Translations under genes and position numbers: made by a program
Shown here: piece after piece, positions 27,031-55,186 of the stretch
Layout: each line of letters starts with the position of its first letter
Numbering within the stretch: the stretch's first letter is position 1
The notes under the pieces: model-generated
Told to the model about the DNA's origin: nothing
Seen by the model: the letters and a program-made list of their open reading frames with translations, nothing else
The model's database searches: none
NCBI RefSeq assembly: GCF_011421595.1
Contig: NZ_WTLH01000005.1
Coordinates: 1-64,000 of the forward strand
Length of the DNA stretch: 64,000 bases
Direction: 5' to 3'
Source of the DNA: Streptomyces sp. YIM 98790
GTDB taxonomy: Bacteria; Actinomycetota; Actinomycetes; Streptomycetales; Streptomycetaceae

Positions 27031-27046
27031 TGCCTTCCGCTCGGGT

Positions 27047-28168: not shown

Positions 28169-29175
28169 CGGCGTGCCTCCTGTCGCTGGTTGCCGTGGTC
28201 TCCGGCCGTGCCTGCCTTGGCCGGTTTCCACCACTGGGGGTTGTTGCGGTACCACGCCACCGTTTCGGACAGCCCGCTGCCGAACGGCACCCGCGGCGTG
28301 AACCCGAGCTGCTCCCGGATCTTGCTGCCGTCCAGCGCGTACCGCAGGTCGTGTCCCTTGCGGTCGGCCACGTACCGGATCGCGGACCGGTCCGCGCCGC
28401 AGAGGCTGAGAATCCGCTGGGTGAGTTCGAGATTGGCCAGCCGGGTGCCCCCGCCGATGTTGTAGACCTCTCCGGCACGGCCGCGGTGGAGTACCAGGTG
28501 GACGGCACGGCAGTGGTCGTCCACGTGCAGCCACTCGCGGGTGTTGCGGCCGTCGCCGTAGAGCGGCACCGGGACGCCTTCGAGCAGATTGGTGATGAAG
28601 CGCGGGATGAGCTTCTCGGGGTGCTGGCGGGGCCCGTAGTTGTTGGAGCACCGGGTGATGGAGAGGTCGAGGCCGTGGGTGTGCCAGTAGGAGCGGGCCA
28701 CGAGATCGGCGGCGGCCTTGGAAGCCGCGTAGGGGGAACTGGGCAGCAGCGGCCAGCCCTCGTCGGACTGACCGGCTGCCACCGAGCCGTACACCTCGTC
28801 CGTGGAGACGTGGACCACCCGTCCGACCCCGGCGCGCAGAGCCGCGTCGAGCAGCACCTGGGTACCGAGGACATTGGTGCGGCAGAAGTCGGCGCCCGAG
28901 TCGATGGAGCGGTCCACATGGGACTCCGCGGCGAAGTGCACCACGGCGTCGTGACCGGGCAGCAGTTCGTGCAGCAGCCGGGCGTCGCAGATGTCGCCCC
29001 GGACGAAGTCCAGCCGGTCATGATGCGCGGGAAGGTTCCGCCGGTCCCCGGCGTAGGTGAGTTTGTCCAGGACGGTGACGTGTGTGCCGTCCGCGGAGCC
29101 GTACCGCCCGGCCAGCAGCGCGCGGACGAAGTGGGACCCGATGAAGCCGGCGCCGCCGGTCACCAGGATTCTCAT
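28165..29175 (-). CDS. rfbB: dTDP-glucose 4,6-dehydratase
   Basis: A 336-residue extended SDR of RmlB type. It has [11 protein letters not shown] for NAD, the catalytic Tyr-x3-Lys in [12 protein letters not shown], Thr-Asp-Glu in VSTDEVYGS, and the sugar-binding [21 protein letters not shown]. It makes dTDP-4-keto-6-deoxyglucose, the common intermediate for the aminosugar. It starts 1 bp after the rfbA stop. Confidence 0.95.
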
Positions 29176-29176
29176 G

Positions 29177-30070
29177 TCATGCCCTTTCCTCGGGAGCGGG
29201 CCGGCCGGCGGCGGAGATGTCCATCACGTACCGTCCGTAGGCCGTGCCGGCCATCGCCGTGCCCAGCCGGTGGCAGTCCTCACGGCCGATGAACCCCATG
29301 CGCCAGGCGATCTCCTCGATGCAGGCGATGCGCACGCCCTGCCGGTGCTCCAGGATCTGGACGTACTGGGCCGCCTCCACCAGGGCGTCGTGCGTTCCGG
29401 TGTCCAGCCAGGCGAATCCGCGGCCCAGGGAGACCAGCCGGGCCCGGCCCCTTTCCAGGTAGGCGCGGTTGAGATCGGTGATCTCCAGCTCGCCTCGCGA
29501 AGAGGGCCGGAGGTTCTTGGCGATGTCGACGACGTCGTTGTCGTAGAAGTACAGTCCGGTGATCGCCAGATTGGACCGTGGCCGGGCCGGTTTCTCCACG
29601 AGCGAGACCAGATTGCCGTCGTCGTCGACCTCGGCAACGCCGTACCGCTCGGGGTCGCGGACGGGATAGCCGAACAGTACGCAGCCGTTCACGTCGCGGG
29701 CGTTCTCCTGGAGAATTCCGCTGAATCCGGGCCCGTGGAAGATGTTGTCCCCGAGGACCAGAGCCACGTCGTCGTCCCCGATGTGGTCGGTGCCGATGAC
29801 AAAGGCTTCGGCCAGGCCACGCGGGCGGTCCTGCTCGGCATAGCCGATGGAGAGCCCGAGCGCTGATCCGTCACCCAGCAGCCGGCGGAAACTCTCGCGG
29901 TCCCGGGGGGCCGAGATGACGAGGATGTCGGTGATTCCGGCCAGCATGAGCACCGAAAGCGGGTAATAGATCATCGGCTTGTCGTAGACGGGTATCAATT
30001 GCTTCGAGGTGCCGATCGTGATGGGGTGGAGACGAGTACCGTGGCCGCCCGCGAGGATGATGCCTTTCAC
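29177..30070 (-). CDS. rfbA: Glucose-1-phosphate thymidylyltransferase
   Basis: A 297-residue RmlA. The signature is [44 protein letters not shown]; the catalytic Asp is in [10 protein letters not shown], and the family-typical [24 protein letters not shown] is present. It makes dTDP-glucose from glucose 1-phosphate and dTTP. First gene of the operon. The GTG at 30070 has GGAGG seven bases upstream. A SARP-type promoter lies about 80 bp upstream. Confidence 0.95.
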
Positions 30071-36037: not shown

Positions 36038-37588
36038 TCACCGCAGGCCGGGACCGGCCAGTGCCGAGCGGAGCGCCACGCGGTCGATCTTGCCGTTCTC
36101 GTTGCGGGGCAGGGTTTCGAAGGCGGCCAGCCGGCGAGGGATCATGTACCCGGGCAGCCGGGCGGCCAGCGCGCAGAGCAGGTCCTCCTCGGCCGCGCCG
36201 TCTCCCGCGTACGCGGCGACCAGTTCCGTCTCGCCGCTCTCGCCGGCCCCGGCGAGGACCACGGCATCGGTCACCCCGGGCTGTTCCCGCAGGACCGCCT
36301 CGATCTCGCCGAGTTCCACGCGGTAGCCGCGGACCTTCACCTGGTGATCGGTACGCCCCAGGTGGACCAGATCGTTCCCGTGGCGGGTGACCCGGTCGCC
36401 GGTGCGGTACCAGTGCTCCTCCGTCAGCGGGCCGCGCCCGTCATGGCCGGTCGCCGTGGAGCCGTCGAAGTGCAGGAAGCGGCCCGCGTTGTCGGCCGGG
36501 TCGAGATAGCCGGGGAACCGCTGCGGCCCGCGCAGGCAGAGCTCCCCGGCCCGCGCCGGGCGGCCCCCTTCGTCCAGCACGACATGGTCCAGCCCGGGGT
36601 GGACCCGGCCGATGGGAACCGTGCCGTTGGCCGGGCGCGGCCAGTCGCCCGGGTCGGCGGGCAGGCGGTACTCGGCGCAGGTGACGGTCATCTCGGTGGG
36701 ACCGTAGAGGTTCTCCACCACGCTGCCGGGGGCGGCCCTGCTCCAGGCCCCGGCCTGGAGCAGGGTGAGCGGCTCCCCGCAGAACAGGCTCCGGCGCAGG
36801 GTCGGCATGCCGCCCGGTTCCAGCGCGCGCATCCGCAGGGCGAGGGAGATGACCGAGGGCACCGAGTTCCAGTGCGTGATGCGGTTCCGGTTGATGAACC
36901 GCACCGGGGCCAGCAGGTCGGCCCGGGTGGGGACGACCAGGGTGGCCCCGGAACCCCAGGCCGTGAACATGTCGTAGACCGACGGGTCGAAGGTGAGATC
37001 GAACGCCTGGGAAACACGGTCTCCCGGCCCTGTTCCGTGCCGGGAGACCACGTGCTCCAGATAGGCGTGCACATTGCGGTGCCGGATCGGCACTCCCTTG
37101 GGGACGCCCGTGGAACCCGAGGTGAAGAGGATGTACGCCAGGCCGTCGGGGCCGGCCGGCCGTGCGGGGAGCACGGCACCGGTGTCCTCGGCCGGCGCGA
37201 GCAGCTCCTGCTCCGTGGGGGAGAACACGGGCACCCCCGGGGGCGTCTCCGGGTGCTCACCGCCGTCGGCCAGCAGCAGGCCGACTCCGGCCGCGCGTGC
37301 GATGGCGGCATTGCGGCCCGGCGGGAAGGCGGGATTGAGGGGGACCACGGTGGCGCCGAGCCGCAGCACCGCCAGATAACCGGCGTAGGCGAGAAGACTG
37401 CGGGAGGCCAGGAGGCCGATGCGGCGGGGCGCCCGGCCCGCCCGGCGCAGCAGGAGGCGGGCCGTCCGGTCGGAGTGGGCGGCGAGTTCCCGGTAGGTCC
37501 ACCGCCGGCCGCCGATCTGCAGTGCGGTCCGATCGCCGTGGACGGCCGCCGAGGCGGCGAACCAGCCGTACAGGGTCCTGTCCGTCAT
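36038..37588 (-). CDS. Stand-alone amino-acid adenylation domain
   Basis: A 516-residue NRPS-type adenylation protein without a carrier domain. Core motifs are intact: A3 ILFTSGSTGVPKGV, A4 region FDLTFDPSVYDMF, A5 NLYGPTEMTVTC, A7 YRTGD, A8 GRTDHQVKVRGYRVELGEIEAVL and A10 NENGKID. It would activate an amino acid and load it onto a discrete carrier, most likely the ACP at 41513-41767 or the ACP fused to the BtrH-like protein. The Asp in the A4 region argues for an alpha-amino-acid substrate; I did not assign a specificity code. ATGA overlap with the gene upstream. Confidence 0.88.
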   Translation of the reverse strand: MTDRTLYGWFAASAAVHGDRTALQIGGRRWTYRELAAHSDRTARLLLRRAGRAPRRIGLLASRSLLAYAGYLAVLRLGATVVPLNPAFPPGRNAAIARAAGVGLLLADGGEHPETPPGVPVFSPTEQELLAPAEDTGAVLPARPAGPDGLAYILFTSGSTGVPKGVPIRHRNVHAYLEHVVSRHGTGPGDRVSQAFDLTFDPSVYDMFTAWGSGATLVVPTRADLLAPVRFINRNRITHWNSVPSVISLALRMRALEPGGMPTLRRSLFCGEPLTLLQAGAWSRAAPGSVVENLYGPTEMTVTCAEYRLPADPGDWPRPANGTVPIGRVHPGLDHVVLDEGGRPARAGELCLRGPQRFPGYLDPADNAGRFLHFDGSTATGHDGRGPLTEEHWYRTGDRVTRHGNDLVHLGRTDHQVKVRGYRVELGEIEAVLREQPGVTDAVVLAGAGESGETELVAAYAGDGAAEEDLLCALAARLPGYMIPRRLAAFETLPRNENGKIDRVALRSALAGPGLR

Positions 37589-38571
37589 GGGCGTTCCTCC
37601 GGCGGCAAGGTGGTGGCGAGCGCGGCGGGGGCCCGGGCGAGGAGCTCCCCGGTGGTGTCCGCGAGCCGCCGGAAGGCCGCGTTCACCAGGCCGGGCCGCG
37701 GCCGGCCACGGCGGGCCGAGTCGATGGCGAAGCGCACCGAACGCGGCAGCGCCAGCCAGGCGTCGCTGACCGGCCGCGTCTCTTCCCGGCCGAGCAGGCC
37801 GCGTGACACGAGCGTTTCCAGCCGGTACCGGTGATGCCGGCCGGCCGCCCAGAGATCCTCGGCGTGGGCCGCGAGCGCGGCCTCGTCCCCGGCGAGGCGT
37901 TCGGCGATCCGCAGCAGGGTCTTGACCGGATCCACGGGCACGCCGGGCGCCGGGGCGGCCGGTACCGGGCGCGGCCCGGTCCAGCCGAGCCAGCGGTAGT
38001 GGGCGGGCGGAGGGAGTTCGGTCTTCTCGCCCAGGGCGTGGGCATCGCGGTTGCGGATCACCGCCGGCGGTTCCGGAATGGGCGTCAGCGCGGCCCGCAG
38101 CTGGCCCGAGGTGAGCCGTCCGCACCATGGCCGCTGCCTGCCCAGCGGGGTCAGGGCGGCGAAGCGGTCGGCCACCAGCCAGCCGTCCGCGTCACGGCCC
38201 AGCAGCTGCATCCAGTGCGGGGTGTACGCCCTGCCCAGCCCGGGAGACCACGGAAGATGACCGGTGTTGGCGACGACCAGCACCCGCCCGGCACGAGCCA
38301 GCTCCCCGGCCAGCGCGTCCCGTGTCTCCGGCCAGGACCCGGCGCTCCGGTAACGCAGCATCCGTCCGTGCCGGTCCTGGTCGATCCGTCCGTGCTGGGA
38401 GAGGACGAGCTCGCCGCCCTCGGTGCCGGCGTCGAGGCGGACGGCGGCGGCCAGGCGCCCGCGCACATCCGGGATGCCCGGGGCGAGATAGTCCACCAGA
38501 TTGGTGGTGTAACAGCTCAGCTCGGCCGGCTCCGGACCCGTGGCACGATGTCCGGTGAGGGATGCGGTCAC
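37585..38571 (-). CDS. BtrH-like papain-fold acyltransferase candidate
   Basis: A 328-residue protein. The N-terminal third has the arrangement of the BtrH/peptidase C39-like fold: Cys20 in AELSCYTTNLVDYL, His119 in YTPHWMQLLGRDADG and Asp135 in WLVADRFAAL. In butirosin biosynthesis BtrH uses this kind of site to move an acyl group from a carrier protein to the aminoglycoside. It is co-encoded with carriers, an adenylation protein and a PPTase, all overlapping by 4 bp. It is the first of two such proteins in the operon. The assignment rests on motif layout and context, so it is tentative. Confidence 0.6.
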   Translation of the reverse strand: MTASLTGHRATGPEPAELSCYTTNLVDYLAPGIPDVRGRLAAAVRLDAGTEGGELVLSQHGRIDQDRHGRMLRYRSAGSWPETRDALAGELARAGRVLVVANTGHLPWSPGLGRAYTPHWMQLLGRDADGWLVADRFAALTPLGRQRPWCGRLTSGQLRAALTPIPEPPAVIRNRDAHALGEKTELPPPAHYRWLGWTGPRPVPAAPAPGVPVDPVKTLLRIAERLAGDEAALAAHAEDLWAAGRHHRYRLETLVSRGLLGREETRPVSDAWLALPRSVRFAIDSARRGRPRPGLVNAAFRRLADTTGELLARAPAALATTLPPEERP

Positions 38572-39209
38572 GTCCTGCCCTCCTCCCTGTTCATGGCGAA
38601 TGCACAGCTCAGTGGGGTCTGGGACAGCCCTCGGAGGCTGATCCAGCGATATCCGCGCCAGTCGCCCGAACACCGCCACGGCGGGATGTCGATGGCCCAC
38701 GGGCGTCCGGAGAAGCCGGCCCCGGTGGCCTTGACACACGCCTCCTGCGCGGTCCAGATCCAGGCCAGTTCCCTGGCGGCGTCCTCGCCCGGCAGAGCGG
38801 CGAGGCCGGCCGTCCGGGCGGACGGGACCCGCCGCAGCAGGGGCCCGACGGCCGACTCCCGGGGATGCTGGAGATCGACCCCGACAGCCCGGTCCACGGC
38901 CGCGCAGGCCGCCACCCGTCCGCCGTCGTGCGAGATGCTGATGCCCAGCCGGGGCCAGCCCCGCAGATACGGTTTGCCGCCCCGGCGGGCGGCCACCGCG
39001 GCTCCGGCTGCGGGCCGGTGGACGTCGTTCAGCAGGGCGCGGAGCAGACCACGGCCGGCCAGGAACTCCCGTGCCCGCCACGGGGGCATCCCCGACGCCG
39101 CGGCCAGATCGGCGGGCCGGGCCCATGACCGGGAGTCCTCGGTGCCCGCGGTGGCCACCCAGACTCCGGGTGCGATCTCGGCCCGCAGGGCCGCCGTGCC
39201 GCCGCTCAT
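38568..39209 (-). CDS. Sfp-type 4'-phosphopantetheinyl transferase
   Basis: A 213-residue Sfp-family enzyme. It has ISISHDGG (residues 90-97), the Mg-binding Asp112 in AVGVDLQ, and Trp152-x3-Glu156-x3-Lys160 in IWTAQEACVKATG. It would convert the apo carriers of this operon, and perhaps the PKS ACP, to the holo form. ATGA overlap with the dehydrogenase gene upstream and GTGA overlap with the BtrH-like gene downstream. A dedicated transferase inside an operon suggests that the local carriers need their own activator. Confidence 0.88.
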   Translation of the reverse strand: MSGGTAALRAEIAPGVWVATAGTEDSRSWARPADLAAASGMPPWRAREFLAGRGLLRALLNDVHRPAAGAAVAARRGGKPYLRGWPRLGISISHDGGRVAACAAVDRAVGVDLQHPRESAVGPLLRRVPSARTAGLAALPGEDAARELAWIWTAQEACVKATGAGFSGRPWAIDIPPWRCSGDWRGYRWISLRGLSQTPLSCAFAMNREEGRT

Positions 39210-40336
39210 GACCCGGCACGGAGTTCGTCGAGCAGGGCGGGAGCGGCATCGGCGACGGCGGAGAGCATGACCTCGGTGGTGCCGCCGCCGACGCCGAAGA
39301 CTCCGGCCTGGGCGCGGAGCCGGTGGGCGCCGTCCGCGGCGAAGCCGTCGGCACCCTGGAGCCGGGCACACTCGGCGAGCACACCGTCCACCGTGGTCCC
39401 CACGGCGGCCTTGAGCAGGGCGGCGGCGCCGCTGTCGTGCCGGCGGGCGATCCGGTCGCCCAGCTCGCGGGTGAGTGCGTCGAGCAGCCGCAGTTGCACC
39501 AGGCAGCGGGCATGGCGCAGGCGTACGGCGTCCAGGTCCCACAGCGTGCCCCCGCCGTGGGCGCGTGTCCGGAGCATGCGCAGGGTGGCGTCCAGGGCGC
39601 GGCGGCAGAGTGCAACCGCCCACAGCGCCCCGGCCAGGCGTTCGTTGACGATGCACCGGGCGAAGCCGGGCAGCCCGCGCCCCGGGCGGCCGAGGAGGTG
39701 GGAGCGGGCCAGCCGCACCCCGTCGAAGGTGACATGGCCGACGCCGGAGCCGGTGAAGAACGGCGTGTCGGCCGGACGCACCCGGACTCCCGGCACGGTG
39801 GCCGGGACCGTCAGCCAGGTGAAGTCGGTGAAGTGCTGCCCGGGCCGGTGCCGGGCGAGCACCAGATAGTGGTCCGCGACAGTGGCGTTGGTGATCCAGC
39901 GCTTCTCCCCGTCCAGCCGCAGCCCGTGCGCGCCGATGTGCACCTCGGTGGACATGCCGGTCAGGTCGGAGCCGGAACCGGTGTCGGTGGCGGCCAGGGC
40001 CACCACGCCGGAGCCGGTCAGCGCGCCGGCCAGCGGGCCGGCCGCGGCGGGGTCACCGGCCAGCAGGGGCAGCGCGGTGGCCGTCTGGACGCAGACGGCG
40101 AGCGTGGTGCCGACCGGGAAGCGGGCGTCCACCGCGGCGAGCAGCCGGCCGAGCCGGTCGGGACGGACGCCGGCGGCGGCCGTGCCGTCGCGGTACACCG
40201 GCCGGATCAGGTCCGCGGCGCCGAGGGCCTGCCAGACCTCCCGGCCGGGCGCGTCGGCGGGGAGTGCGCCGAGCGTGCGGTCCAGGGTGGCCGGCCAGCC
40301 GCCGGAGGGGGCCGGTGCGGTGCCGCTGTCAGGCAA
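39206..40336 (-). CDS. Acyl-CoA-dehydrogenase-like flavoprotein 1
   Basis: A 376-residue ACAD-fold protein. FAD/substrate regions are visible as ALAATDTGSGSDLTGMSTEV and LRLDGEKRWITNATVADHYLVLAR, and the C-terminal helical domain ends in GVGGGTTEVML. The catalytic Glu of fatty acyl-CoA dehydrogenases (the YEGT motif) is not obvious. It may oxidise an aminoacyl or acyl group on the discrete ACP. The start is a TTG with GGAGG six bases upstream, overlapping the preceding gene by 8 bp. Confidence 0.82.
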   Translation of the reverse strand: MPDSGTAPAPSGGWPATLDRTLGALPADAPGREVWQALGAADLIRPVYRDGTAAAGVRPDRLGRLLAAVDARFPVGTTLAVCVQTATALPLLAGDPAAAGPLAGALTGSGVVALAATDTGSGSDLTGMSTEVHIGAHGLRLDGEKRWITNATVADHYLVLARHRPGQHFTDFTWLTVPATVPGVRVRPADTPFFTGSGVGHVTFDGVRLARSHLLGRPGRGLPGFARCIVNERLAGALWAVALCRRALDATLRMLRTRAHGGGTLWDLDAVRLRHARCLVQLRLLDALTRELGDRIARRHDSGAAALLKAAVGTTVDGVLAECARLQGADGFAADGAHRLRAQAGVFGVGGGTTEVMLSAVADAAPALLDELRAGS

Positions 40337-41516
40337 GGCGTACCTCCGGGTCGAGCAGGGCGAGCCGGCCGTCGGCGAGATGCAGCCGGTCATTGCTGTA
40401 GTTCAGGGCGGCCGAGCGCAGGTCGCGCAGCGCCAGCTCCAGCCGGGTCGGAGAGTCCTTGAGGTAGCCGTGGCGGAGCCCGACGGCGTCCACCAGGTCC
40501 TCGACGGCCCGGTGGCACTGCTCGGCCGCGGTGATCTTGAGCGCGTTGAGCAGCAGCTGGTGGCGTGGCACGGAGATGTCCGGGGCCGTGCACACCAGGT
40601 CCTCGGCACGGCGCAGCAGGGCGTGCACCGTGTCCAGCCGTTGCCGGGCCCGGGACAGCCGGGTGAGCAGCAGCTCCGAGCCGAGGTCGAAGCGTGTGCG
40701 GCCGTCCGGGCCGCGCAGCAGCCGGAGGACCCGGGACAGGGCCCCGGCGGCCGTGCCCAGCCAGGCGGCCGACCAGCCCAGATGGGCCATGGGGGCGAAA
40801 ATCCTGGTGGAGATCTCCGCGAACGAGCCCGGCGCGCCGATCACCTGATGGGCCGGTACCCGGCCGGCCAGCCGCAGCGGAATGCTGTGGCTGGCCCGCA
40901 TGCCCATGGGCTGCCAGTCACCGGAGACGGTGACGCTGAGCTGGTCCCGGTGCGCGTACACGAGGGAGACCGCTTGGGGGGAACCGTCCTCGGAGCCGCG
41001 CATGGTGATGAGGAAGCCGTCCGCATGCGCGCCTCCGGTGACGATGGGGGCGTGGCGGTCGATCTCCACGTGGCTGCCGTCACGGCGCAGGGCGGCGTGC
41101 GCGGTGAGCAGGTGGCCGCCCTTGCCGGCCTCCGTGGTGACGGACGCCAGGTAGTGCCGGCCGCTGCCGAGCCGGCGGAGCAGCTCGCTGCGCAGCGGCT
41201 CGCCGCTGTACCGCACCGTCGCCTCGACCTGCTGGCAGTGCATGACGAAGATCATGGCGATGGACATGTCGGCCCGGCCGAGCCGGATGCCGATGTCCAC
41301 CATGTCCCGGAGGGTTCCGCCGAGGCCGCCGTGCTCGGGCGGAACCAGCAGTCCCAGCAGCCCGGTGCGGCGGAGCTCGTCGAGCACCGGCACCGGGAAG
41401 GCCGCGTCGCGGTCGGTGCGCGGCGCGTGTTCCTCGGCAACGCCGGCGACGTGGTCCGCGAGGCCGGCGAGTCCGCCGGGGACGGCCGTCGCCGGACGGC
41501 TCGGCGCGCTGGTCAT
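40329..41516 (-). CDS. Acyl-CoA-dehydrogenase-like flavoprotein 2
   Basis: A 395-residue ACAD-superfamily protein, more divergent than its neighbour. It has the N-terminal helix bundle (LLVPPEHGGLGGTLRDMVDIGIRLGRADMSIAMIF), a beta domain (ASVTTEAGKGGHLL, HAPIVTGGAHADGFLI, WQPMGMRASHSIPL) and a C-terminal helix bundle. It lacks the canonical C-terminal GGTxE motif. The MGMRAS turn is common in both dehydrogenases and flavin hydroxylases of this fold, so either an oxidation or an N/C-hydroxylation is possible. ATGA overlap with the ACP gene upstream. Confidence 0.8.
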   Translation of the reverse strand: MTSAPSRPATAVPGGLAGLADHVAGVAEEHAPRTDRDAAFPVPVLDELRRTGLLGLLVPPEHGGLGGTLRDMVDIGIRLGRADMSIAMIFVMHCQQVEATVRYSGEPLRSELLRRLGSGRHYLASVTTEAGKGGHLLTAHAALRRDGSHVEIDRHAPIVTGGAHADGFLITMRGSEDGSPQAVSLVYAHRDQLSVTVSGDWQPMGMRASHSIPLRLAGRVPAHQVIGAPGSFAEISTRIFAPMAHLGWSAAWLGTAAGALSRVLRLLRGPDGRTRFDLGSELLLTRLSRARQRLDTVHALLRRAEDLVCTAPDISVPRHQLLLNALKITAAEQCHRAVEDLVDAVGLRHGYLKDSPTRLELALRDLRSAALNYSNDRLHLADGRLALLDPEVRLA

Positions 41517-41767
41517 GCCGGCTCCCCGGTGTCCTGCGGCAGCTGCGCCGCGATGGCCCGCCACAGGTTTCCTGCCGTGCCGAAGGTCGTGTCGTTGAGC
41601 TCGTCGTCGGGCAGCGAGATGCCGTAGGTGTCCTCGATGGCGAACAGCAGCTCGATGGCCTGCATGGAGTCGAGGCCGAGCGCGCGCAGGTCCGACTCGG
41701 GGGTCAGCCCGGGATCGCTGGCGAACTTCAGGAACGGGCGGAGCAGGTCGGTGAATCGCTGATCCAC
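41513..41767 (-). CDS. Discrete acyl/peptidyl carrier protein
   Basis: An 84-residue carrier protein. The phosphopantetheine Ser34 is in LGLDSMQAIELLFAIEDTYGISLPDDEL, a classic carrier helix II. The GTG at 41767 has AAGGA eight bases upstream and lies 4 bp after the decarboxylase stop. By analogy with BtrI (butirosin) and VinL (vicenistatin), it is the probable scaffold on which the amino-acid unit is loaded, decarboxylated and oxidised. It is distinct from the PKS ACP at 61893. Confidence 0.88.
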   Translation of the reverse strand: MDQRFTDLLRPFLKFASDPGLTPESDLRALGLDSMQAIELLFAIEDTYGISLPDDELNDTTFGTAGNLWRAIAAQLPQDTGEPA

Positions 41768-41771
41768 GGGC

Positions 41772-43175
41772 TCAGTCCTTTTCGTTCGGAAGGGAGGCAC
41801 GGGTGATGCCGAGCCGGGACCGTTCCGGCGGCAGTCCCGGGCGGTCGCTGTCGAGCACGATCTCCACCGGCAGGGGGTGTCCGAGAAAGGCGACCAGACT
41901 GGCGTAGAGGCCGTAGGCGCCGACGTTGGGCACGGCGACGAGGTCGCCGGGCCGCAGCCTGGGCAGCCGGGCCGTGCGGGCCCACAGGTCCAGGGGAGTG
42001 CACAGCGGGCCGGCGATCATGGCCGGGCCGCTCTCCGCCGCGGCCGGCTCTCCGCCGTCGGCCCCGCGGCCGGTGAGCAGATGCGGTACCAGCGGCGGCA
42101 GCCGGCGCAGCCCCGACATGCCGCCGAGGTGGTTGATTCCCGATTCCAGGACCACCACGTCCCGGCCGTGGGAACGCTTGACGTCCAGCACGGCCGTCAC
42201 CAGGGTTCCGGCGGAACCCACCAGATACCGGCCGGATTCGAAGACGATCCGCGGCCGGCCGGTCCGCCACCGGGGCAGTTCGCGGTCGAGCAGGGTCTCC
42301 AGCTCGGCCCGCAGGCCGGACAGGCCGGCCGGCCGGCCCGCCCGGGCGAAGGGTGCCCCGAATCCGCCGCCGAGGTCGAGCACCCGGATGTCGGCACCGT
42401 GTCCGTTCAGTATTCCGGCCAGCCGGGCGGCGGTGCGCACCGAGCGGCGGAACTGGCCGACCAGATCCGGCACGCTCTCCAGGTTGGTGCCGAGGTAGAA
42501 GTGCAGGCCGTGCACGGTCACGCCGTCCCGGCCCGCGAAGCGCCGGGGCTCCCGGACGATCCACTCGGTGTCCGCGCCGAACTGTGAGGGGCCACCGGTC
42601 ATGGCCAGTCCTCTGCTCCCGGCCGCCTGGTCGTCGTTGACCCGCAACAGGCAGCGCACGGCGGTGTCGCGGGCCGCCGCCGCGGCCCGGAGCTGGTCCA
42701 GGGCTGCCGGTGAGTCGGCGGAGAATTCCCGGACGCCCTCGGCCAGGGCCAGGTCGAGATCCCGGTCACGCTTTCCCGGCCCGGTGTAGAGCACCCGGCC
42801 GGCCGGCCAGCCCGCGTCCAGCGCGGCGGCGAGTTCTCCGGGGGAGCACACCTCGGGCCGTACGCCCCGCGCCCGGAGCTCGGCCAGCAGAGCCGGGTGC
42901 GGATTGGCCTTGAGGGAGTAGTAGAGATCCGCCTCGACCGGCAGAGCGCCGCGCAGCGCGGCGTGGTTGGCGCGGACCCGGGCGAGGTCGTAGACGTAGG
43001 CCGGGGTCTCGCCGATGTCCTGGCCCGCCCAGGAGGGCAGCCCGGTTTCCCGCTCCCCGCTGCCGGGCTCCCGGCTCTCGGGCTCCCGGCTCTCGGGCTC
43101 CCGGCTCTCGGGCTCCCGGCTCTCGACGTTCCGGCTGTCGGGGTTCCGGCTGTCGGGCTCCTGGCTCTCAGGCAC
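41772..43175 (-). CDS. PLP-dependent decarboxylase, BtrK/VinO (DAP decarboxylase fold)
   Basis: A 467-residue fold-type III decarboxylase. The PLP Lys is Lys89 (YYSLKANPHPALLAELR); other family blocks are VHGLHFYLGTN, VLDLGGGFGAP, IVFESGRYLVG and the active-site Cys392 (GPLCTPLDLW). BtrK and VinO of this fold decarboxylate glutamyl- or methylaspartyl-units bound to a carrier protein; diaminopimelate decarboxylase is the primary-metabolism relative. Residues 1-45 are an unusual low-complexity extension encoded by seven 15-bp repeats. The GTG at 43175 has GGAGG six bases upstream and overlaps the ligase by 8 bp. Confidence 0.87.
   Translation of the reverse strand: MPESQEPDSRNPDSRNVESREPESREPESREPESREPGSGERETGLPSWAGQDIGETPAYVYDLARVRANHAALRGALPVEADLYYSLKANPHPALLAELRARGVRPEVCSPGELAAALDAGWPAGRVLYTGPGKRDRDLDLALAEGVREFSADSPAALDQLRAAAAARDTAVRCLLRVNDDQAAGSRGLAMTGGPSQFGADTEWIVREPRRFAGRDGVTVHGLHFYLGTNLESVPDLVGQFRRSVRTAARLAGILNGHGADIRVLDLGGGFGAPFARAGRPAGLSGLRAELETLLDRELPRWRTGRPRIVFESGRYLVGSAGTLVTAVLDVKRSHGRDVVVLESGINHLGGMSGLRRLPPLVPHLLTGRGADGGEPAAAESGPAMIAGPLCTPLDLWARTARLPRLRPGDLVAVPNVGAYGLYASLVAFLGHPLPVEIVLDSDRPGLPPERSRLGITRASLPNEKD
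43066..43170. repeat. 15-bp minisatellite inside the decarboxylase gene
   Basis: Seven tandem 15-bp units. Four are identical (GGCTCCCGGCTCTCG on the plus strand) and three are diverged. On the coding strand they give the pentapeptide series ESREP/DSRNP near the decarboxylase N-terminus. The unit keeps the frame, so copy number can vary without breaking the protein. Confidence 0.9.
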
Positions 43176-44679
43176 GGTCGGCCTCCGTGACCAGGGCGGC
43201 GAGGCGTTTGCGGTCCACCTTGCCGTTGCCGTTGACCGGGAGACGGTCCACGACCAGGCAGCGGGCCGGGATCTTGAACACCTCGATCTGGCCGCGCATG
43301 CCGTCCAGCACCCGTGCCGGCGCCTGGTCGGTGACCGCGACCAGAACGGCCGGGTGCTCCGCCGAGGGCGGCAGCACGGCGGCCGACCGGACACCCGGTA
43401 CCCGGCGGGCCGCGGCCTCCACCTCGGTGGCGCTCACCCGGTAGCCGCGTTCCTTGTACAGATCGTCCCGGCGGCCGACCACATAGAGATGGCCCTCCTC
43501 GTCCAGGCGGCCGTAGTCGCCGGTGTGCAGTTCGGGAAAGAGACCCTCGCGGCGGACGAAGCGGCTCTCGGTCAGCGCCGGCCGCCGCCAGTAGCCGGCC
43601 ATCACGTTGGGGCCCCGCACCACGATCTGGCCGACCGGGCCGGGCGGCAGCCGGTCCCCGGCGTCGTCCACCACGAACACCTCCGTTCCCGGCAGGGCCC
43701 GCCCCGAGGTGCCCGGCCGCTCCAGGTCGGCGTCGGGCGGCGCGATGGTGGCCCGCTTGCACTCGGTGAGGCCGAACATCAGCTGCACGCGCAGCCCGGG
43801 GAGGGCGGCGCGCAGCGCGGACAGCACGGGGGCGGGCATGGCCGCTCCGGTGCTGGTCAGCAGCCGGAGGCAAGGGGCCGGTCCGGGATGCCGGCCCAGC
43901 AGCCGCACCAGGGCCTCGGCCACCGTCGGAAGGGCCGGGAGCACGGTCGCCCGGGTGGTCAGCAGCTGGGACAGCAGGGCGGGACCGGCCTCGGCGGGGC
44001 GCCCCAGCCACACCCGGGCCCCGGAGACCGCCCCGAGGAAAAGCTGGTACATGCCGTAGTCGAAGGACATCGGCAGCGGGCAGTAGACCACGTCGGACTC
44101 CCGGTAGGAGAGCGCCGACTGGATCGCCTCCACCGCGAACAGCACCTGCTGATGCGTGCTGACCACCCCCTTGGGGAAGGAGGTGGTGCCCGAGGTGTAG
44201 ATCAGCAGTACGGGATCGACGGGCAGCGTCGGTTCCCGCTCCGCCCGGACCGCTTCGTCCGGCAGACCGGGGGCGAAGGCGGCGGCGGCCAGCTCTGCGG
44301 TGCTCGCCACCCGGATGTTCCGGCTGTGCGCCGCGGCCGCGGCGGTGTCGGTGACCAGCAGATCGGGTTCGCAGTCGTCGAGGACGTGGGCCAGGGTCGG
44401 CTCCCCGGTCTGCTCGTGGAGCAGCGACACCATGGCGCCGACCCGGGAGGCGGCGTACACCAGGACGGGCTGCAGCACACTCGACGGCGTGCGCATCACC
44501 ACCCGCCGGCCGCGTCGCACTCCGGCGCGGCGCAGCCAGTGGGCGGTCCGTACGCTCGCCTCCGCCAGTTCCCGGTGGCTGACCGTCGTGGTGGCGTCCG
44601 TGACCGCGGGCCGGCCGGGCCGGAGCCGTGCCGCCTCGTCGATCACGTCGTGCAGCACGCGGGTGTGCGGGCGCATCAT
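43168..44679 (-). CDS. AMP-dependent acyl/aminoacyl ligase
   Basis: A 503-residue ANL-superfamily ligase: LLIYTSGTTSFPKGVV (phosphate loop), MFGLTECKRATI, LHTGDYGRLDEEGHLYVVGRRDDLYKERGYRVSATEVEAAA and NGNGKVDRKRL (C-terminal catalytic Lys). It would activate a carboxylic or amino acid as the adenylate and pass it to CoA or one of the carriers. With the adenylation protein at 36038 it makes two activating enzymes in the operon, as in the VinN/VinM pair of vicenistatin, which load two different amino acids on one carrier. ATGA overlap with the gene upstream. Confidence 0.87.
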   Translation of the reverse strand: MMRPHTRVLHDVIDEAARLRPGRPAVTDATTTVSHRELAEASVRTAHWLRRAGVRRGRRVVMRTPSSVLQPVLVYAASRVGAMVSLLHEQTGEPTLAHVLDDCEPDLLVTDTAAAAAHSRNIRVASTAELAAAAFAPGLPDEAVRAEREPTLPVDPVLLIYTSGTTSFPKGVVSTHQQVLFAVEAIQSALSYRESDVVYCPLPMSFDYGMYQLFLGAVSGARVWLGRPAEAGPALLSQLLTTRATVLPALPTVAEALVRLLGRHPGPAPCLRLLTSTGAAMPAPVLSALRAALPGLRVQLMFGLTECKRATIAPPDADLERPGTSGRALPGTEVFVVDDAGDRLPPGPVGQIVVRGPNVMAGYWRRPALTESRFVRREGLFPELHTGDYGRLDEEGHLYVVGRRDDLYKERGYRVSATEVEAAARRVPGVRSAAVLPPSAEHPAVLVAVTDQAPARVLDGMRGQIEVFKIPARCLVVDRLPVNGNGKVDRKRLAALVTEADRA

Positions 44680-45827
44680 GCCTCGTCCCGCACGGCGAGC
44701 CGGCCGGTCGACCTGCCGACGACCCGGCACAGGTCGTCCACCCGGCGCAGGTTTTCGGGAGCGAGTTCTGCGGCGTCGAGCTCGATGCCGAGCGCGCTCT
44801 CCAGCCGCTCCACGATTTCCGCCAGCCGGAAGGAGTCGAAAGCGGGGAAGGACCGGAAGTCCGTGCCGCCGAGCAGCGCGGCCTCGCGCACGCCCAGCAC
44901 CGGGCCCACCACGGCGGCCACGGTGCGGCGCAGCGACTCGTCCGGTGCTGCGGCCCCTGCTGCGGCTCCCGCTGCGGCTCCCGGGGCAGGCGCCGCGGGA
45001 AAGCTCCGCCGGTCCGCGGCCAGTACCTCCGCGAACCGCTCCAGCACGCCCTCCGGTTCGGGTCTGCCGCGGCTGACCCGGCGGTGGGCGAGGTAGGCCC
45101 GTTCCGCCAGACCGTCCCAGGCGTCGAGCTGCTCCCGCTGCACGGAGGTCGGCGGCATGCCGCGGTGCTCCAGGAAGGCGGCGTGCAGCCGGCGGGAGCG
45201 GGCCAGCAGCCACGTCTCCAGGGTCAGCCGTTCCATGGCGGTCTCCCTGTCCCGGTGCGACCGGTACGCCTCCAGGTAGCCGTCGGCCGGACCGTGCTCA
45301 ACCGACGGGCCGGGGCTGGGCGGCCCGGAGGGGGAGGGAGCGAACACGATCACCTCGGCGCCGGTCACCAGGAGCCCCTCGGACGGCAGCCGCCGCGGCC
45401 CGGGCACGGCCACGCCCCACGGGGTGCGGTTGTCGTACGCGTCGATGACGGTGCTGTCGCCGCCGAGCAGGAAACTGTGCTCCATGTGCTTCCGCCGGAA
45501 GTAGGGCACCCACGGCAACTCGTAGGCGTCGGCGACCACATAGGCGAATTCCCCCGGGGGCGCGAGGCCGGTCAGCTCGGCACCGACCACGGACGCCCGG
45601 TCCCGTACCCGCAGCCCGAGCAACTCCTCGGCCGCGGCGAGCTGTTCGGCCAGCGTCGGTTCCACGGTGGGCAGACCCGCGGGCCCCGGGCGCCAGCGGA
45701 AGCGCAGCGGTGCCCCGAGATTGAGATGGGCACCCGTCGTGTAATGGTGATCGGCGAGTACCGCGATATTCGCCTGCAGGCAGTCCAGCAGGCCGGTGTG
45801 CACGGATTCGCTCGACGGCATGGTCAT
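44676..45827 (-). CDS. BtrH-like papain-fold protein fused to an ACP
   Basis: A 383-residue two-domain protein and first gene of the accessory operon. The N-terminal domain (about 1-165) resembles BtrH: Cys16 in LLDCLQANIAVLADHH, His117 in KHMEHSFLLGGDST and Asp129 in VIDAYDN. A helical segment and an Ala/Gly-rich linker (residues 279-294) lead to a carrier domain (about 298-370) with Ser332 in FPAFDSFRLAEIVERLE. I know of no described enzyme with this architecture. It may receive an acyl chain on its own carrier and transfer it. The ATG at 45827 (GGGGA upstream) is preferred; 45821 is possible. Confidence 0.65.
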   Translation of the reverse strand: MTMPSSESVHTGLLDCLQANIAVLADHHYTTGAHLNLGAPLRFRWRPGPAGLPTVEPTLAEQLAAAEELLGLRVRDRASVVGAELTGLAPPGEFAYVVADAYELPWVPYFRRKHMEHSFLLGGDSTVIDAYDNRTPWGVAVPGPRRLPSEGLLVTGAEVIVFAPSPSGPPSPGPSVEHGPADGYLEAYRSHRDRETAMERLTLETWLLARSRRLHAAFLEHRGMPPTSVQREQLDAWDGLAERAYLAHRRVSRGRPEPEGVLERFAEVLAADRRSFPAAPAPGAAAGAAAGAAAPDESLRRTVAAVVGPVLGVREAALLGGTDFRSFPAFDSFRLAEIVERLESALGIELDAAELAPENLRRVDDLCRVVGRSTGRLAVRDEA

Positions 45828-45904
45828 GAAAGTCCCCAAACCCGGTGATCGGAGGACCGGATACCGGCCCGCTCGGGCATCGAAATCCGCTCCGGAAGGA
45901 ATCC

Positions 45905-45940
45905 GGCAGGCTGCCCCGAATTTCCTGGGGGCAGCCTGCC
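45905..45940. promoter_or_regulatory. Perfect 13-bp inverted repeat in the divergent promoter region
   Basis: GGCAGGCTGCCCC and GGGGCAGCCTGCC enclose 10 nt (gaatttcctg). It lies 77 bp upstream of the accessory operon start, inside its likely leader, and about 190 bp from the acyltransferase start. It could be a leader hairpin, an insulator between divergent units or a regulator site. Confidence 0.55.
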
Positions 45941-46021
45941 ACACTGCGGCGGAGGCTATGGAACAGCTTCTTCGGGACGGCGGAGCATCTCAAGGGCCTG
46001 CTTGTCAGAGATCTGCAGGAT

Positions 46022-46039
46022 TTCGTCAAGTCGCGGTCA
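46022..46039 (-). promoter_or_regulatory. Possible SARP heptamer pair
   Basis: On the minus strand, TGACCGC (46039-46033) and TGACGAA (46028-46022) lie 11 bp apart, like the TGAC heptamers before the deoxysugar operon. No good -10 follows at 8 bp, so this is weaker. It could drive the accessory operon. Confidence 0.35.
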
Positions 46040-46128
46040 ATCCCGTCGGGCGGCGGATCGGCGCGGAAAATATGCACACCATGACAATGGAAGAACTCGG
46101 CCCGAATTCGTACGGGAGGCGGGGCGGC

Positions 46129-47136
46129 ATGAACGAGCAATCGGGTGCGCCGGACGGCCGGCCCGTGGTGGTGCTGCTGCCCGGACAGGGGGCTCAGCAC
46201 CCCGGTATGGCGGTGGAGCTGTACGGGACGGAGCCGGGGTTCACGGAATCCATGGACCGGTTCTTCGCCTTCATGGGCGACGAGGGGCGGCGGCTCCGGG
46301 AGGACTGGCTCGCCGGTGAACCGTCCGTCCCGCTGGACGACGCCTCCCGCGCCCAGCCGCTGCTGTTCGCCGTCGGATACGCCCTGGCCACCGCCCTGCG
46401 GAAACGCGGCCTTCGCCCCGCGGCATTTCTCGGGCACAGTGTCGGGGAACTTGCCGCCGCCGCCCTGGCCGGTGTCTTCACCCTGCAGGAGGCGGCGGCT
46501 CTCATGCGGGCACGGTCGGCGGCCATGGCGACCGCTCCGCCGGGCGGCATGCTCGCGGTGGCCGCCACCCGGGAACAGGCGGAGAGCTGCCTGGATGCCC
46601 GGGCCCGGGCCGACGGCATGGCGGTGGCCGCGGTGAACGCGCCGCGCCAGGTGGTGCTGGCCGGCCCGGAGCCACGGCTGAGCCTGGTGGCGGCAGAGCT
46701 CCGGGACCGCGGCGTCATGTGCCGCAGGGTCAGGTCACGGCAGCCGTTCCACTGTCCTGCCGTGGCCGGGGCGGGGGAACTGTTCGAGGCCGGCTTCGCC
46801 GGAATCCGCCTGCGCCGGCCGCACACACCGGTCTGGTCGACCCGGACTGCCCGGCCGGTGCAGGACGGGGAGGCGCTCTCCGCCGGATTCTGGGCCCGCC
46901 AGCTCGACGCCCCGGTGCTTTTCTGGCCCGCCCTGGACGCCCTGCTGTCGGAGGGGGAGTTCCTGCTCGTCGAGGCGGGGCCGGGCAAGGCGCTGTCCAT
47001 GCCCGTCCGCCGTCACCCGGCGGTGCGCGGCGGGCGCAGCGCGGTCGTCCCGGTGCTGCCGGCCGGCGCCGGGGGCACGCTGCGCGCCTGGCACGACGCC
47101 TTGCTGACGCTCGGCATCGTACCGGCAGCCCGGTGA
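46129..47136 (+). CDS. Discrete malonyl/acyl-transferase (VinK/DpsD-like)
   Basis: A 335-residue FabD-fold acyltransferase. LLPGQGAQHPGM is at the start, the nucleophile is Ser104 in FLGHSVGELAAA, the Arg region is LMRARSAAM, and the catalytic His208 is in RQPFHCPAV. The HCPAV form of the usual AFHSP loop suggests a non-malonyl substrate. Possible roles: a VinK-type enzyme moving the amino-acid-derived unit from the discrete ACP to the PKS, a DpsD/AknF-type priming enzyme, or an ordinary malonyl transferase. It is divergent from the accessory operon. The ATG at 46129 has GGGAGG upstream; in-frame ATGs at 46072 and 46081 lack a site. Confidence 0.8.
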   Translation: MNEQSGAPDGRPVVVLLPGQGAQHPGMAVELYGTEPGFTESMDRFFAFMGDEGRRLREDWLAGEPSVPLDDASRAQPLLFAVGYALATALRKRGLRPAAFLGHSVGELAAAALAGVFTLQEAAALMRARSAAMATAPPGGMLAVAATREQAESCLDARARADGMAVAAVNAPRQVVLAGPEPRLSLVAAELRDRGVMCRRVRSRQPFHCPAVAGAGELFEAGFAGIRLRRPHTPVWSTRTARPVQDGEALSAGFWARQLDAPVLFWPALDALLSEGEFLLVEAGPGKALSMPVRRHPAVRGGRSAVVPVLPAGAGGTLRAWHDALLTLGIVPAAR

Positions 47137-50951: not shown

Positions 50952-52235
50952 TCAGCCGCGGTGCCGGGCGGTGAGCCTCTCCAGCACCGGGACGATGTCC
51001 ACCGGACTGGGGACGGCGAGCATGTCGTCGTGCAGCCGCCGGGCCCCGGCCTGGAAGGACGGTTCGGCCAGCAGCCGGGCGAGCTGGTGTTTCATCGTCC
51101 CGGCGGAGAACTGGTCGCCGTCCACGGCGAGACCGGCGCCGCGCTCGGACACGTAACGGGCCGCCGGTGCCGAGGCGCCGCTGTCCCAGGCGGTCAGCAT
51201 GCCGGTCACCAGCTGCGGCACGCCGGCGGCGATGGCGGCCCCCATCGTGCCGGGGCCGCCGTGGTGGATGACCGCCGAACACGTCGGCAGCAGCAGATGG
51301 AGCGGCAGGTACTCCACGACCCGGACGTTGTCCGGGAGCTTCTCCTCCGGGTGGAGCTGGCCGGCGTTGAGGGTGGCCACCACCTCGATGTCCATGTCGG
51401 CGACCATGCCCAGCAGCTCACCGATGGAGATGCCGCTCGCGATGTGCCGCTCCCGGCCGCTGAGGCCCGCGGTCAGGCAGACCCTGGGCTTCACGGGCGG
51501 CTCCTGGAGCCATGCCGGAACAGCGGCGTTGCCGTTGTAGGGCACGGGCCGGACGGACACGGTGCGCACGCCGACCGGGAGCCGCATCGGTTCCGGGATG
51601 GGGTCGACGGTCCACTGGCCGAGCAGCATCTCCTCGTCGGCGTCGAAGCCGAACCGCCGCGCCATGGGGCGCATCAGTTCGGTCAGCGGGTCGTCACCCG
51701 CGCCGGGGAGACGCGAGGCCGCCCGCTCGCGGAAGAGCTGCCGCAGCCAGGCCCAGTAGTCCACCGCGATCTGCAGGCGGGCGTGGGCCGCGCCGCAGGA
51801 CCGGGCGGCGATCGGCGCACCGAAGAAGGACCCGTCCCACAGCACCAGCTCGGGCTGCCAGCGCCGGGCGAAGGACACCAGGTCGTCCACCATGGGACGG
51901 TTGCCGGGGGCGCGTTCCGTCTCCAGGAAGTACTTGCGCATCACGGGAAGGATGCGGTGACGCAGGAAGCGCCAGATGCGGCTCTCGTAGGCATCCAGGG
52001 CCAGCGCCTCGGCGAGCCGGTCGAGCTTCGCCTCGTCCGCGGGCGGGGGCTTCGCGGGGAGCTGTTCCCCCTCGCCGAGGACCACGGCGGTCAGGCCGGC
52101 GCCGGCTACGGCCTCGGCCATGCTCGGGTAGCAGGCGACCCGGAGATCGTGCCCGGCTGCGCGCAGCGCCCAGGCGAGGGGGACGACCGGGAAGACGTGG
52201 GTTGTCGACGGCCATGCCGCGATCAGGATGCGCAT
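50952..52235 (-). CDS. Deoxysugar glycosyltransferase (GT1, EryCIII/AknS-like)
   Basis: A 427-residue GT-B glycosyltransferase. The N-terminal acceptor domain starts MRILIAAWPSTTHVFPVVPLAWALRAAGHDLRVACYP, and the donor-binding block is LPLHLLLPTCSAVIHHGGPGTMGAAIAAGVPQLV. It would attach the dTDP-aminosugar to the polyketide. Members of this group that use dimethylamino sugars often need a P450-like helper (DesVIII, AknT); none is in the window. A C-glycosyl linkage cannot be excluded. It is the only glycosyltransferase seen. Confidence 0.9.
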   Translation of the reverse strand: MRILIAAWPSTTHVFPVVPLAWALRAAGHDLRVACYPSMAEAVAGAGLTAVVLGEGEQLPAKPPPADEAKLDRLAEALALDAYESRIWRFLRHRILPVMRKYFLETERAPGNRPMVDDLVSFARRWQPELVLWDGSFFGAPIAARSCGAAHARLQIAVDYWAWLRQLFRERAASRLPGAGDDPLTELMRPMARRFGFDADEEMLLGQWTVDPIPEPMRLPVGVRTVSVRPVPYNGNAAVPAWLQEPPVKPRVCLTAGLSGRERHIASGISIGELLGMVADMDIEVVATLNAGQLHPEEKLPDNVRVVEYLPLHLLLPTCSAVIHHGGPGTMGAAIAAGVPQLVTGMLTAWDSGASAPAARYVSERGAGLAVDGDQFSAGTMKHQLARLLAEPSFQAGARRLHDDMLAVPSPVDIVPVLERLTARHRG

Positions 52236-54598: not shown

Positions 54599-55186
54599 TC
54601 AGGCGTGGTAGGGGCGCTTGGCCCGCGCCTCACGAAGGGCCGTCGCCCACCAGACCAGCTGGTCGAGCATGGTCTTGGCCGCGGCGCTGCATCCCTGGGG
54701 TTCCTTCGGCCGCCCCTGGGGGTCGAAGCTCTGCACGCCGCCGTGGAAACTGACGGTGTCGCGGATGGTGACGGCGTGCAGCTCGGCGAAGACCTGCCGA
54801 AGCTGCTCGACGGCCCGCAGACCCCCGGCGATGCCGCCGTAGGAGACGAAGCCCACCGGCTTGGCGCGCCACTGCGACAGGTGCCAGTCGATCGCGTTCT
54901 TCAGGACGGCGGGAAAGCTGTGGTTGTACTCGGGGGTCACCACCACATAGGCGTCGGCCCGGTCGATGCGGGGCGATACCGTGTCCAGCACCTGGGCCAT
55001 CTCCGGTGCGGGCGGACGCGTGGGCCCGGCCATGCTCAGCGGGACATCGGCCAGATCGATGACATCCAGCGCGAGGTCGTCCCGCTGCCGCGCCTCGCCC
55101 ACGAACCACTGCGCCACCGTGGGCCCGAAGCGGCCGTTGCGGGAGCTACCGATGATCACCGCGACGGGGATGGGCGTGTCCGGCAT
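54599..55186 (-). CDS. NADPH-dependent FMN reductase
   Basis: A 195-residue flavodoxin-fold reductase with VIIGSSRNGRFGPTVAQWF (phosphate loop) and VVTPEYNHSFPAVLKNAIDW (flavin-binding). It would supply reduced flavin to an oxygenase or reduce a quinone. Similar genes lie in gilvocarcin- and jadomycin-type clusters. The second ATG (55186) is preferred because AAAGG lies too close to the first (55192). Confidence 0.87.
   Translation of the reverse strand: MPDTPIPVAVIIGSSRNGRFGPTVAQWFVGEARQRDDLALDVIDLADVPLSMAGPTRPPAPEMAQVLDTVSPRIDRADAYVVVTPEYNHSFPAVLKNAIDWHLSQWRAKPVGFVSYGGIAGGLRAVEQLRQVFAELHAVTIRDTVSFHGGVQSFDPQGRPKEPQGCSAAAKTMLDQLVWWATALREARAKRPYHA

Follow-up and report, generated by a model that had tools for sequence, protein, structure and literature searches.

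We analysed a 64,000-nucleotide stretch of Streptomyces sp. YIM 98790 (positions 1 to 64,000 of contig NZ_WTLH01000005.1, assembly GCF_011421595.1; hereafter the window), and within it a nine-gene operon, g1–g9, with a divergent acyltransferase (AT) gene. With a probability of roughly three in four, the operon is an azicemicin-type aziridinyl-starter cassette that would prime the adjacent type II, angucycline-like polyketide synthase (PKS), giving a product predicted to be glycosylated with a deoxyaminosugar. Gene content, predicted folds, conserved residues, conserved gene order and synteny with three type II PKS clusters were established directly, and the reactions and the product are proposals. 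Aziridines alkylate DNA and are seldom met in natural products. The azicemicin kind is already known; new are the glycosylated variant, the functional assignments of g5 and of g1 and g8, and the wide spread of the cassette.

A conserved cassette beside a type II polyketide synthase

Genes g1–g9 are located on the minus strand from 45827 to 36038, are all open reading frames and are tightly packed. Neighbouring genes overlap by a few bases at seven of the eight junctions, and at the remaining one about 4 bases separate g3 from g4. The AT gene (46129–47136, plus strand), a possible starter transacylase, diverges from them. Family profile searches assigned AMP-binding domains to g2 and g9, the Orn/DAP/Arg decarboxylase family to g3, PP-binding domains to g4 and the C-terminus of g1, the acyl-CoA dehydrogenase (ACAD) family to g5 and g6, phosphopantetheinyl transferase (PPTase) to g7 (38568–39209), and Acyl_transf_1 to the AT, which also has homologues in the syntenic clusters described below. 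Coordinates and families essentially agree with an earlier sequence-only reading of this DNA, which had described nine overlapping genes and a divergent AT.

A search of 150 genomes with g8 returned nine matches at E 0.001, the window's genome included, and five other Streptomyces matched at E 4.3e-63 or better. Genes g1–g9 occur in the window's order in three genomes (G060, G084 and G068) and g1–g8 in a fourth (G059), while a fifth (G066) has g1 and g4–g9 without close g2 and g3. A scan of genome contigs with g5 gave 66 loci, to which the window's genome does not contribute. Under bit-score cut-offs of our own setting, which may miss weak g7 and g8 copies, g1, g4, g5 and g6 are found together in 52 of these loci, g6 in 54, g5 alone in eight, and g2-g3-g4-g5 without g1 and g6 in four. 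Because five other Streptomyces and many actinobacteria have these genes in the same order, complete or almost so, the arrangement is far beyond chance, and g1–g9 are, on this sequence evidence, a real, intact and conserved biosynthetic cassette.

The PKS context was compared with 60-kb stretches of Kibdelosporangium persicum, Actinosynnema sp. ALI-1.44 and Labedaea rhizosphaerae. All three hold the cassette, the AT, the PPTase, a type II PKS and hydroxylases. Identities to the window are 59–70% for the AT, 75–78% for the ketosynthase KSalpha, 69–74% for KSbeta, 68–70% for the acyl carrier protein (ACP), 79–80% for the ketoreductase, 73–78% for the aromatase, 56–62% for a small cyclase and 66% for a flavin mononucleotide (FMN) reductase. 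In a maximum-likelihood tree of 66 g5 proteins, the window's protein grouped with exactly those of K. persicum, ALI-1.44 and Labedaea (100/99). K. persicum and ALI-1.44 are placed together in a single Kibdelosporangium genus, in which four of eight genomes have a g5 match at E 1e-60.

In the window, the PKS runs from 57.6 kb rightward and extends past the window's end into L009, which belongs to the same 81,375-base contig (C370). This region contains a type II minimal PKS with an angucycline-type ketoreductase, cyclases and hydroxylases. On the minus strand, family matches and syntenic homologues identify ketosynthases taken as KSalpha (63384–64000, start beyond the window in L009) and KSbeta, the chain length factor (62164–63387), a short-chain dehydrogenase/reductase (SDR) presumed to be the PKS ketoreductase (61032–61817), a polyketide aromatase/cyclase (59977–60930) and a further SDR reductase (57646–58407). 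The PKS ACP (61893–62162) was recognized by position and similarity, and a flavin adenine dinucleotide (FAD)-dependent hydroxylase-like gene (58511–59980) by eye and from its homologues in the syntenic clusters, both again on the minus strand.

In all four type II cases the PKS comes with a discrete AT. No tblastn match at E 1e-5 was found in the three syntenic stretches for any of the window's seven sugar genes, for its glycosyltransferase, for either of its two Acyl_transf_3 genes or for its aldo-keto reductase (AKR); the 60 kb of each stretch leave room for sugar genes farther away. The window's ABC genes match one generic transporter only, in Labedaea. The genome has ten matches to PF08545, the family of ketosynthase III (KSIII), none of them on contig C370. 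A role as PKS starter is favoured because there is no KSIII on the contig and because the AT accompanies the PKS in 4/4 cases whereas the sugar genes do not. The recurrence of cassette, AT and type II PKS together in three relatives likewise makes the unit more likely a starter than an aminosugar decoration, and attachment to aminosugar or aglycone is disfavoured because these relatives keep the cassette while their 60-kb stretches show no homologue of the window's sugar genes or glycosyltransferase. The sequence-only reading had left both fates open; synteny supports the first and speaks against the second.

Azicemicin biosynthesis, as a 2009 abstract in the Journal of the American Chemical Society is said to describe it, draws its aziridine from aspartate and employs two adenylyltransferases, one of them specific for aspartate, together with a decarboxylase, a further ACP and oxygenases. 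The window has the two adenylating enzymes, the decarboxylase and the further ACP of this list. The azicemicins, whose cluster was sequenced in 2009, are aziridine-containing type II polyketides of Kibdelosporangium sp. MJ126-NF4 (PMC4384478), and 'aziridinyl' is in a training set of type II PKS starters (PMC4383371, in the main text of which the word azicemicin is absent). The likeness to the azicemicin cluster (BGC0000202/GU134622) lies in a type II PKS with an aziridinyl starter, predicted for the window, and in the match of the window to the clusters of K. persicum and ALI-1.44; relative to the azicemicin type, the window seems to have gained genes for a deoxyaminosugar, a glycosyltransferase gene, two genes of the Acyl_transf_3 family and a pair of ABC exporter genes. 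The sequence-only reading knew of no such operon combined with an aromatic PKS. The combination is not unprecedented, as it fits the azicemicin type and recurs in three type II clusters. This comes close to what would have counted against the sequence-only reading, namely the same operon in a characterised cluster with a known product, short of a direct sequence match to azicemicin.

Published cluster comparisons give a further, indirect link. Contig 29 of Streptomyces sp. BR123 (43,146 bp, lanthipeptide/nonribosomal peptide synthetase (NRPS)) has azicemicin BGC0000202 as its nearest known cluster, at 8%, in the part of PMC9405382 that treats it. This contig is our locus L104, which carries g1 and g4–g9 without g2 and g3, and the genes common to BR123 and azicemicin are probably those of the cassette because the other labelled contents are lanthipeptide and NRPS. 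Micromonospora NRPS regions reach 13% to azicemicin in passages of PMC7918784 and PMC7375171, and several Micromonospora genomes among the g5 loci have cassettes, which may or may not be these published regions. In passages of PMC8532670, PMC12420744, PMC6624776 and PMC9120177, azicemicin is only mentioned. No description of ring closure in azicemicin was found in the open-licence literature searched, which proves little.

Proposed loading, decarboxylation and oxidation of the amino acid

The stand-alone AMP-forming enzyme g2 (43168–44679) has 3wvn and 3wv4 as its best solved relatives, and the amino-acid adenylation enzyme g9 (36038–37588) has 8k4r; we take these structures to be VinN and VinM, respectively. 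In g2, D207, K308 and R309 are kept in at least 97% of 48 sequences and align with D230, K330 and R331 of VinN, which are substrate-binding residues there. In g9, D201, kept in at least 97% of 50 sequences, is the A-domain Asp that from its position we assume to bind the alpha-amino group. The fold-III pyridoxal phosphate (PLP) decarboxylase g3 (41772–43175) is closest among solved structures to BtrK (2j66, E 1.8e-52), and g4 (41513–41767) is a discrete ACP whose Ser34 is conserved in the alignment. Together with the family matches, these relatives point to a carrier-bound amino acid that would undergo decarboxylation, and they bear out the likeness to BtrI/BtrK/BtrH and to the Vin beta-amino-acid starter system that the sequence-only reading had noticed. 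The N-terminal coding part of g3 also contains a tandem array (window 43052–43173) of 8.1 copies of a 15-bp unit, which encodes a repetitive ESREP peptide; the homologues from K. persicum and ALI-1.44 were not seen to begin with such a peptide.

In the vicenistatin pathway, VinO decarboxylates 3-methylaspartyl-VinL, VinM adds alanine and VinK passes the dipeptide to the PKS, as stated in part of PMC11284099. VinN-, VinL- and VinM-like proteins are present in the window, and for the role of VinO the comparison was made with BtrK in its place. Like the VinN/VinL/VinO/VinM/VinK/VinJ system, the window thus has adenylation, an ACP, on-ACP PLP decarboxylation and a second, amide-forming adenylation enzyme, but it adds two flavoproteins, two BtrH-like proteins and a PPTase, and its PKS is type II instead of type I. 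A plain vicenistatin-type macrolactam starter was demoted as a candidate on account of the flavoproteins, the BtrH-like pair and the type II PKS. No peptidase family, as would be expected of a VinJ-type aminopeptidase, was found among the nine genes, to which this search was confined. On-ACP decarboxylation, with BtrK as the closest solved relative of g3, and BtrH-like proteins are shared with butirosin (BtrI/BtrK/BtrH), from which the window differs in its ACAD-family flavoproteins, its PKS-starter context and its AMP-forming rather than ATP-grasp ligases. Butirosin BtrJ is an ATP-grasp ligase; a ligase of this type is absent among the nine genes, and both activating enzymes of the operon are AMP-forming.

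Both flavoproteins, g5 (AC1, 40329–41516) and g6 (AC2, 39206–40336), had been read as dehydrogenases. This stands for g6, which resembles acyl-CoA, acyl-ACP and prolyl-peptidyl carrier protein dehydrogenases and keeps E232-R233 (ERLAG region) in at least 97% of 54 sequences. With E232 presumably the catalytic-type Glu of related dehydrogenases, g6 looks like a true acyl dehydrogenase. A S. californicus plasmid copy of the cassette lists a single ACAD gene, in a gene table that is incomplete, so g6 may not always be needed.

For g5 a dehydrogenase role is doubtful. In a profile search of the PDB, TdsC ranks first and DszC, DnmZ and nitrososynthase follow, with ordinary acyl-CoA dehydrogenases mixed among the 35 matches. 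In addition, g5 is 68% identical to an ACAD-family enzyme at the S. alanosinicus locus L094, which adjoins SbnA/SbnB-like, adenylation and CreD/CreE-like genes (identified by eye). This enzyme is probably AlnG/AlaD of the L-alanosine cluster. AlnG/AlaD is proposed in print to N-hydroxylate diaminopropionate, a beta-amine. Profile hits and this homologue make it possible that g5 is not a dehydrogenase but a flavin monooxygenase of the two-component (group D) type, and then probably an N-hydroxylase; the monooxygenase assignment is held more weakly because ordinary dehydrogenases rank high among its relatives. In the g5 tree, eight alanosine-type loci (L046, L048, L053–L055, L058, L059 and L094) form a 100/100 clade, which sits inside a supported 42-row group together with many cassette g5 proteins and that of the window (the root serves for drawing only). 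The same eight loci gave no match to g1, g2, g3, g4, g6, g7 or g8 at E 1e-6.

A flavin reductase match lies within the flanks of 34 of the 54 g6-bearing loci and of none of the 12 loci without g6; the five probes came from these same clusters and two matches are the probes' own loci, so that 34/54 leans upward. Chance proximity should be rare, because the window's genome has only four PF01613 (Flavin_Reduct) genes in 6.48 Mb. The window's own reductase belongs to a different family, FMN_red. It is an NADPH-dependent FMN reductase (54599–55186, minus strand) and the candidate partner of g5, and the three syntenic clusters each have a homologue of it at 66% identity. On two Streptomyces plasmids, a gene annotated in RefSeq as 'flavin reductase family protein' closes the cassette run.

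The papain-fold pair and the proposed route to the aziridine

The proteins g1 (44676–45827), which is fused to a C-terminal carrier domain, and g8 (37585–38571) are homologous to each other (hhalign 98.1%). C16, H117, D129 and the carrier Ser332 of g1 are invariant in 44 sequences, as are C20, H119 and D135 of g8 in 37. The Pfam family BtrH_N (PF14399) matches 12 of the 44 g1 sequences (best E 0.0019) and 14 of the 37 g8 sequences (best E 8.4e-6) and is, although in a minority of members, the commonest match besides the carrier domain; the window's own g1 and g8 have no BtrH_N match at E up to 2. Against PDB sequences, g1 gave weak matches only (E 0.18 or worse), and among viral contigs searched with g1, eight pattern matches included none that encodes a relative.

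Structure models with a mean pLDDT of 92.5 (g1) and 92.2 (g8) aligned with CtaG, CcbD and AziU3 at VIA Z-scores of 17.5–19.7 for g8 (262–271 residues, 3.7–4.2 A; next row 10.1) and 16.7–17.4 for g1, for which rows 15–50 cover the carrier domain only; these lists do not exclude other folds. Chains of the AziU3/U2 structure, of which those of about 330 residues were taken to be AziU3, scored 17.2–17.6 against the two models. With Foldseek they rank first for g8 (E 2.1e-9) and third for g1 (E 1.4e-4, behind CtaG). The models predict that g1 and g8, each with its invariant Cys/His/Asp set, share a BtrH-like enzyme fold, in line with the two BtrH-like papain-fold proteins, one of them ACP-fused, of the sequence-only reading. 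CtaG and CcbD are acyl-transfer enzymes, and the modelled fold alone does not separate ring closure from acyl transfer. AziU3/U2 of azinomycin is termed functionally an aziridine synthase that acts via sulfate displacement (in a passage of PMC12559475), and its ring-closing step is described in part of PMC9570651. Its likeness to g1 and g8 is one of fold, over their length; a small AziU2-like partner and a sulfotransferase were not identified among the window's nine genes.

The proposed route would start with conversion of the carriers to the holo form by g7. The VinN-like g2 would then load an amino acid via the side-chain carboxyl onto the ACP g4; from the closest relative of g2 and its conserved residues, the likeliest substrate is aspartate or a 3-substituted relative of it. 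The BtrK-like g3 would strip the alpha-carboxyl to give beta-alanyl-S-ACP. With reduced flavin from a reductase, g5 would oxygenate the bound amine, probably to an N-hydroxy form, as published for its alanosine relative as a proposal. The VinM-like g9 would aminoacylate the intermediate, the added group serving for protection or as a leaving group. Hypothetically, both the closure of the aziridine and the passage of the acyl group from one carrier to another fall to the BtrH/AziU3-fold pair g1/g8, with or without g6 as base. The AT would finally hand aziridine-2-carbonyl to the PKS ACP, for extension by the ketosynthases without KSIII. Concrete candidates are thus available for each step, namely g5 with its flavin reductase, g9, and g1/g8.

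Several observations weigh against this reading. Membership in the azicemicin type is indirect, through BR123 contig 29 and the syntenic clusters rather than through a match to the reference GU134622. AT domains of type I PKSs are the nearest relatives of the AT, for which a likeness to VinK could not be shown and which keeps an Arg usual for malonyl transferases. For g5, the best NCBIfam match is the acyl-CoA dehydrogenase FadE16 (E 1.9e-35, compared with 1.6e-15 for DszC), and the N-hydroxylase role of AlnG is itself only a published hypothesis. Twenty of the 54 g6-bearing loci have no flavin reductase match nearby, with probes that are not independent of the clusters, and two flavoproteins provide one oxidation more than ring closure needs. 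Foldseek TM-scores are moderate (0.50–0.58 for g8, 0.38–0.44 for g1), CtaG (Z up to 19.7) and CcbD fit g1 and g8 as well as or better than AziU3, and the g8 profile gave no match to PDB sequences at E up to 10. AziU3 uses a sulfated substrate, and no sulfotransferase is found among the nine genes. Aspartate-specific loading by g2, suggested by analogy, sits uneasily with VinN, the closest relative, for which aspartate is a low-efficiency substrate (in part of PMC11284099).

Within the aziridine-starter reading, a different chemistry is possible, though on balance unlikely. Here g6 would desaturate or g5 would hydroxylate the alpha-carbon to give isoserinyl-S-ACP, g9 would esterify the hydroxyl, and g1/g8 would drive attack of the amine on carbon, as AziU3 does with sulfate. 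The resemblance of g6 to a true acyl dehydrogenase fits this chemistry, as does the closure of the ring by AziU3/U2 through substitution at a carbon with a leaving group (passages of PMC9570651 and PMC12559475). It is opposed by the relative of g5 with a proposed function, which is an N-hydroxylase candidate, and by the branching of the alanosine-type clade inside the group of cassette g5 proteins. A bolder and more doubtful proposal makes the cassette a portable line in which AlnG-type N-hydroxylation and a VinM-like O-aminoacyl leaving group would render the nitrogen electrophilic, and the BtrH-fold pair would join it to the alpha-carbon, with g6 as the alpha-carbon base where present, in the service of NRPS clusters in many actinobacteria and of aromatic PKSs alike. 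If true, aziridine amino acids would be building blocks that are hidden but widespread.

Homology alone suggests only loading, decarboxylation and flavin oxidation, and the starter could be an oxidised open-chain beta-amino-acyl unit (N-hydroxy-beta-alanyl, 3-aminoacrylyl or isoserinyl), with no aziridine closed in this strain. The single-ACAD cassette and the four of 66 loci that have g2-g3-g4-g5 but neither g1 nor g6 point the same way, in that products may vary. This alternative is improbable: three azicemicin-like PKS clusters are syntenic with that of the window, the genes of the cassette stay together, and the models give g1 and g8 the fold of a relative of an aziridine synthase. A butirosin-like side chain, which g1/g8 would transfer to aminosugar or aglycone while the PKS uses acetate, draws on the BtrH_N similarity, the CcbD/CtaG-like fold and the window's aminosugar genes and glycosyltransferase, yet it is very improbable, since the three syntenic clusters keep the cassette but show no homologue of the latter genes at E 1e-5 in 60 kb each, the discrete AT goes with the PKS in every type II case and the nine genes include no BtrJ ATP-grasp ligase. 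Simple butirosin-like transfer to an aminosugar was accordingly demoted, and kosinostatin (pyrrolopyrrole) was dropped as a candidate, as passages of PMC7918784 and PMC5321127 describe nicotinic-acid loading and a different gene set.

Neighbouring genes and spread of the cassette

To the right of the operon are an Acyl_transf_3 protein, the AKR, a major facilitator superfamily transporter, an EryCIII-type glycosyltransferase (50952–52235, minus strand; family match), an S-adenosylmethionine-dependent methyltransferase, an FAD hydroxylase, the FMN reductase and the type II PKS. To its left are an ABC exporter pair and the deoxyaminosugar genes at 23.2–30.0 kb. The latter (minus strand, within 23248–29953) comprise, by Pfam, a nucleotidyltransferase, a DegT aminotransferase, a methyltransferase, a 3,5-epimerase and an epimerase/reductase, and by eye a 4,6-dehydratase-like gene (28165–29175) and a 2,3-dehydratase-like gene (23248–24654).

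Dozens of genomes carry the same cassette, in settings of both the PKS and the NRPS kind, and from this strain a glycosylated azicemicin-type compound is predicted. Among the 54 g6-bearing loci, one was labelled as type II PKS, at least ten as NRPS and 43 as having neither; flanks of at most 10 kb and few query domains make this an undercount, and L040 and L041 were scored 'none' though a PKS lies further out. A TrpB-like and/or ProA-like gene adjoins the cassette in 25 of these 54 loci (L024, L027, L035 and many of L039–L104), several with a further carrier protein, forming a second conserved module of unassigned role. Four loci from Nonomuraea, Actinokineospora and Streptoalloteichus tenebrarius (L095, L096, L099 and L101) have an AMP ligase, a decarboxylase, an ACP and a 45–47% identical g5 homologue, and no matches to g1, g6 or g8. 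Cassette copies are also located on the linear Streptomyces plasmids NZ_CP109002.1 and NZ_CP070262.1 (L120 and L121), one of which is typed as mobilizable, which suggests horizontal spread. In Actinoplanes liguriensis NRRL B-16723 (L098), the matches to several genes of the cassette are broken into pieces, which points to frameshifts or to errors in the assembly. A second cluster in the window's own genome (G000:C90; L010 and L011) has PLP decarboxylase-like, discrete ACP, AMP-forming and ACAD-like genes together with a type I PKS and an FkbH-like gene (identified by eye).

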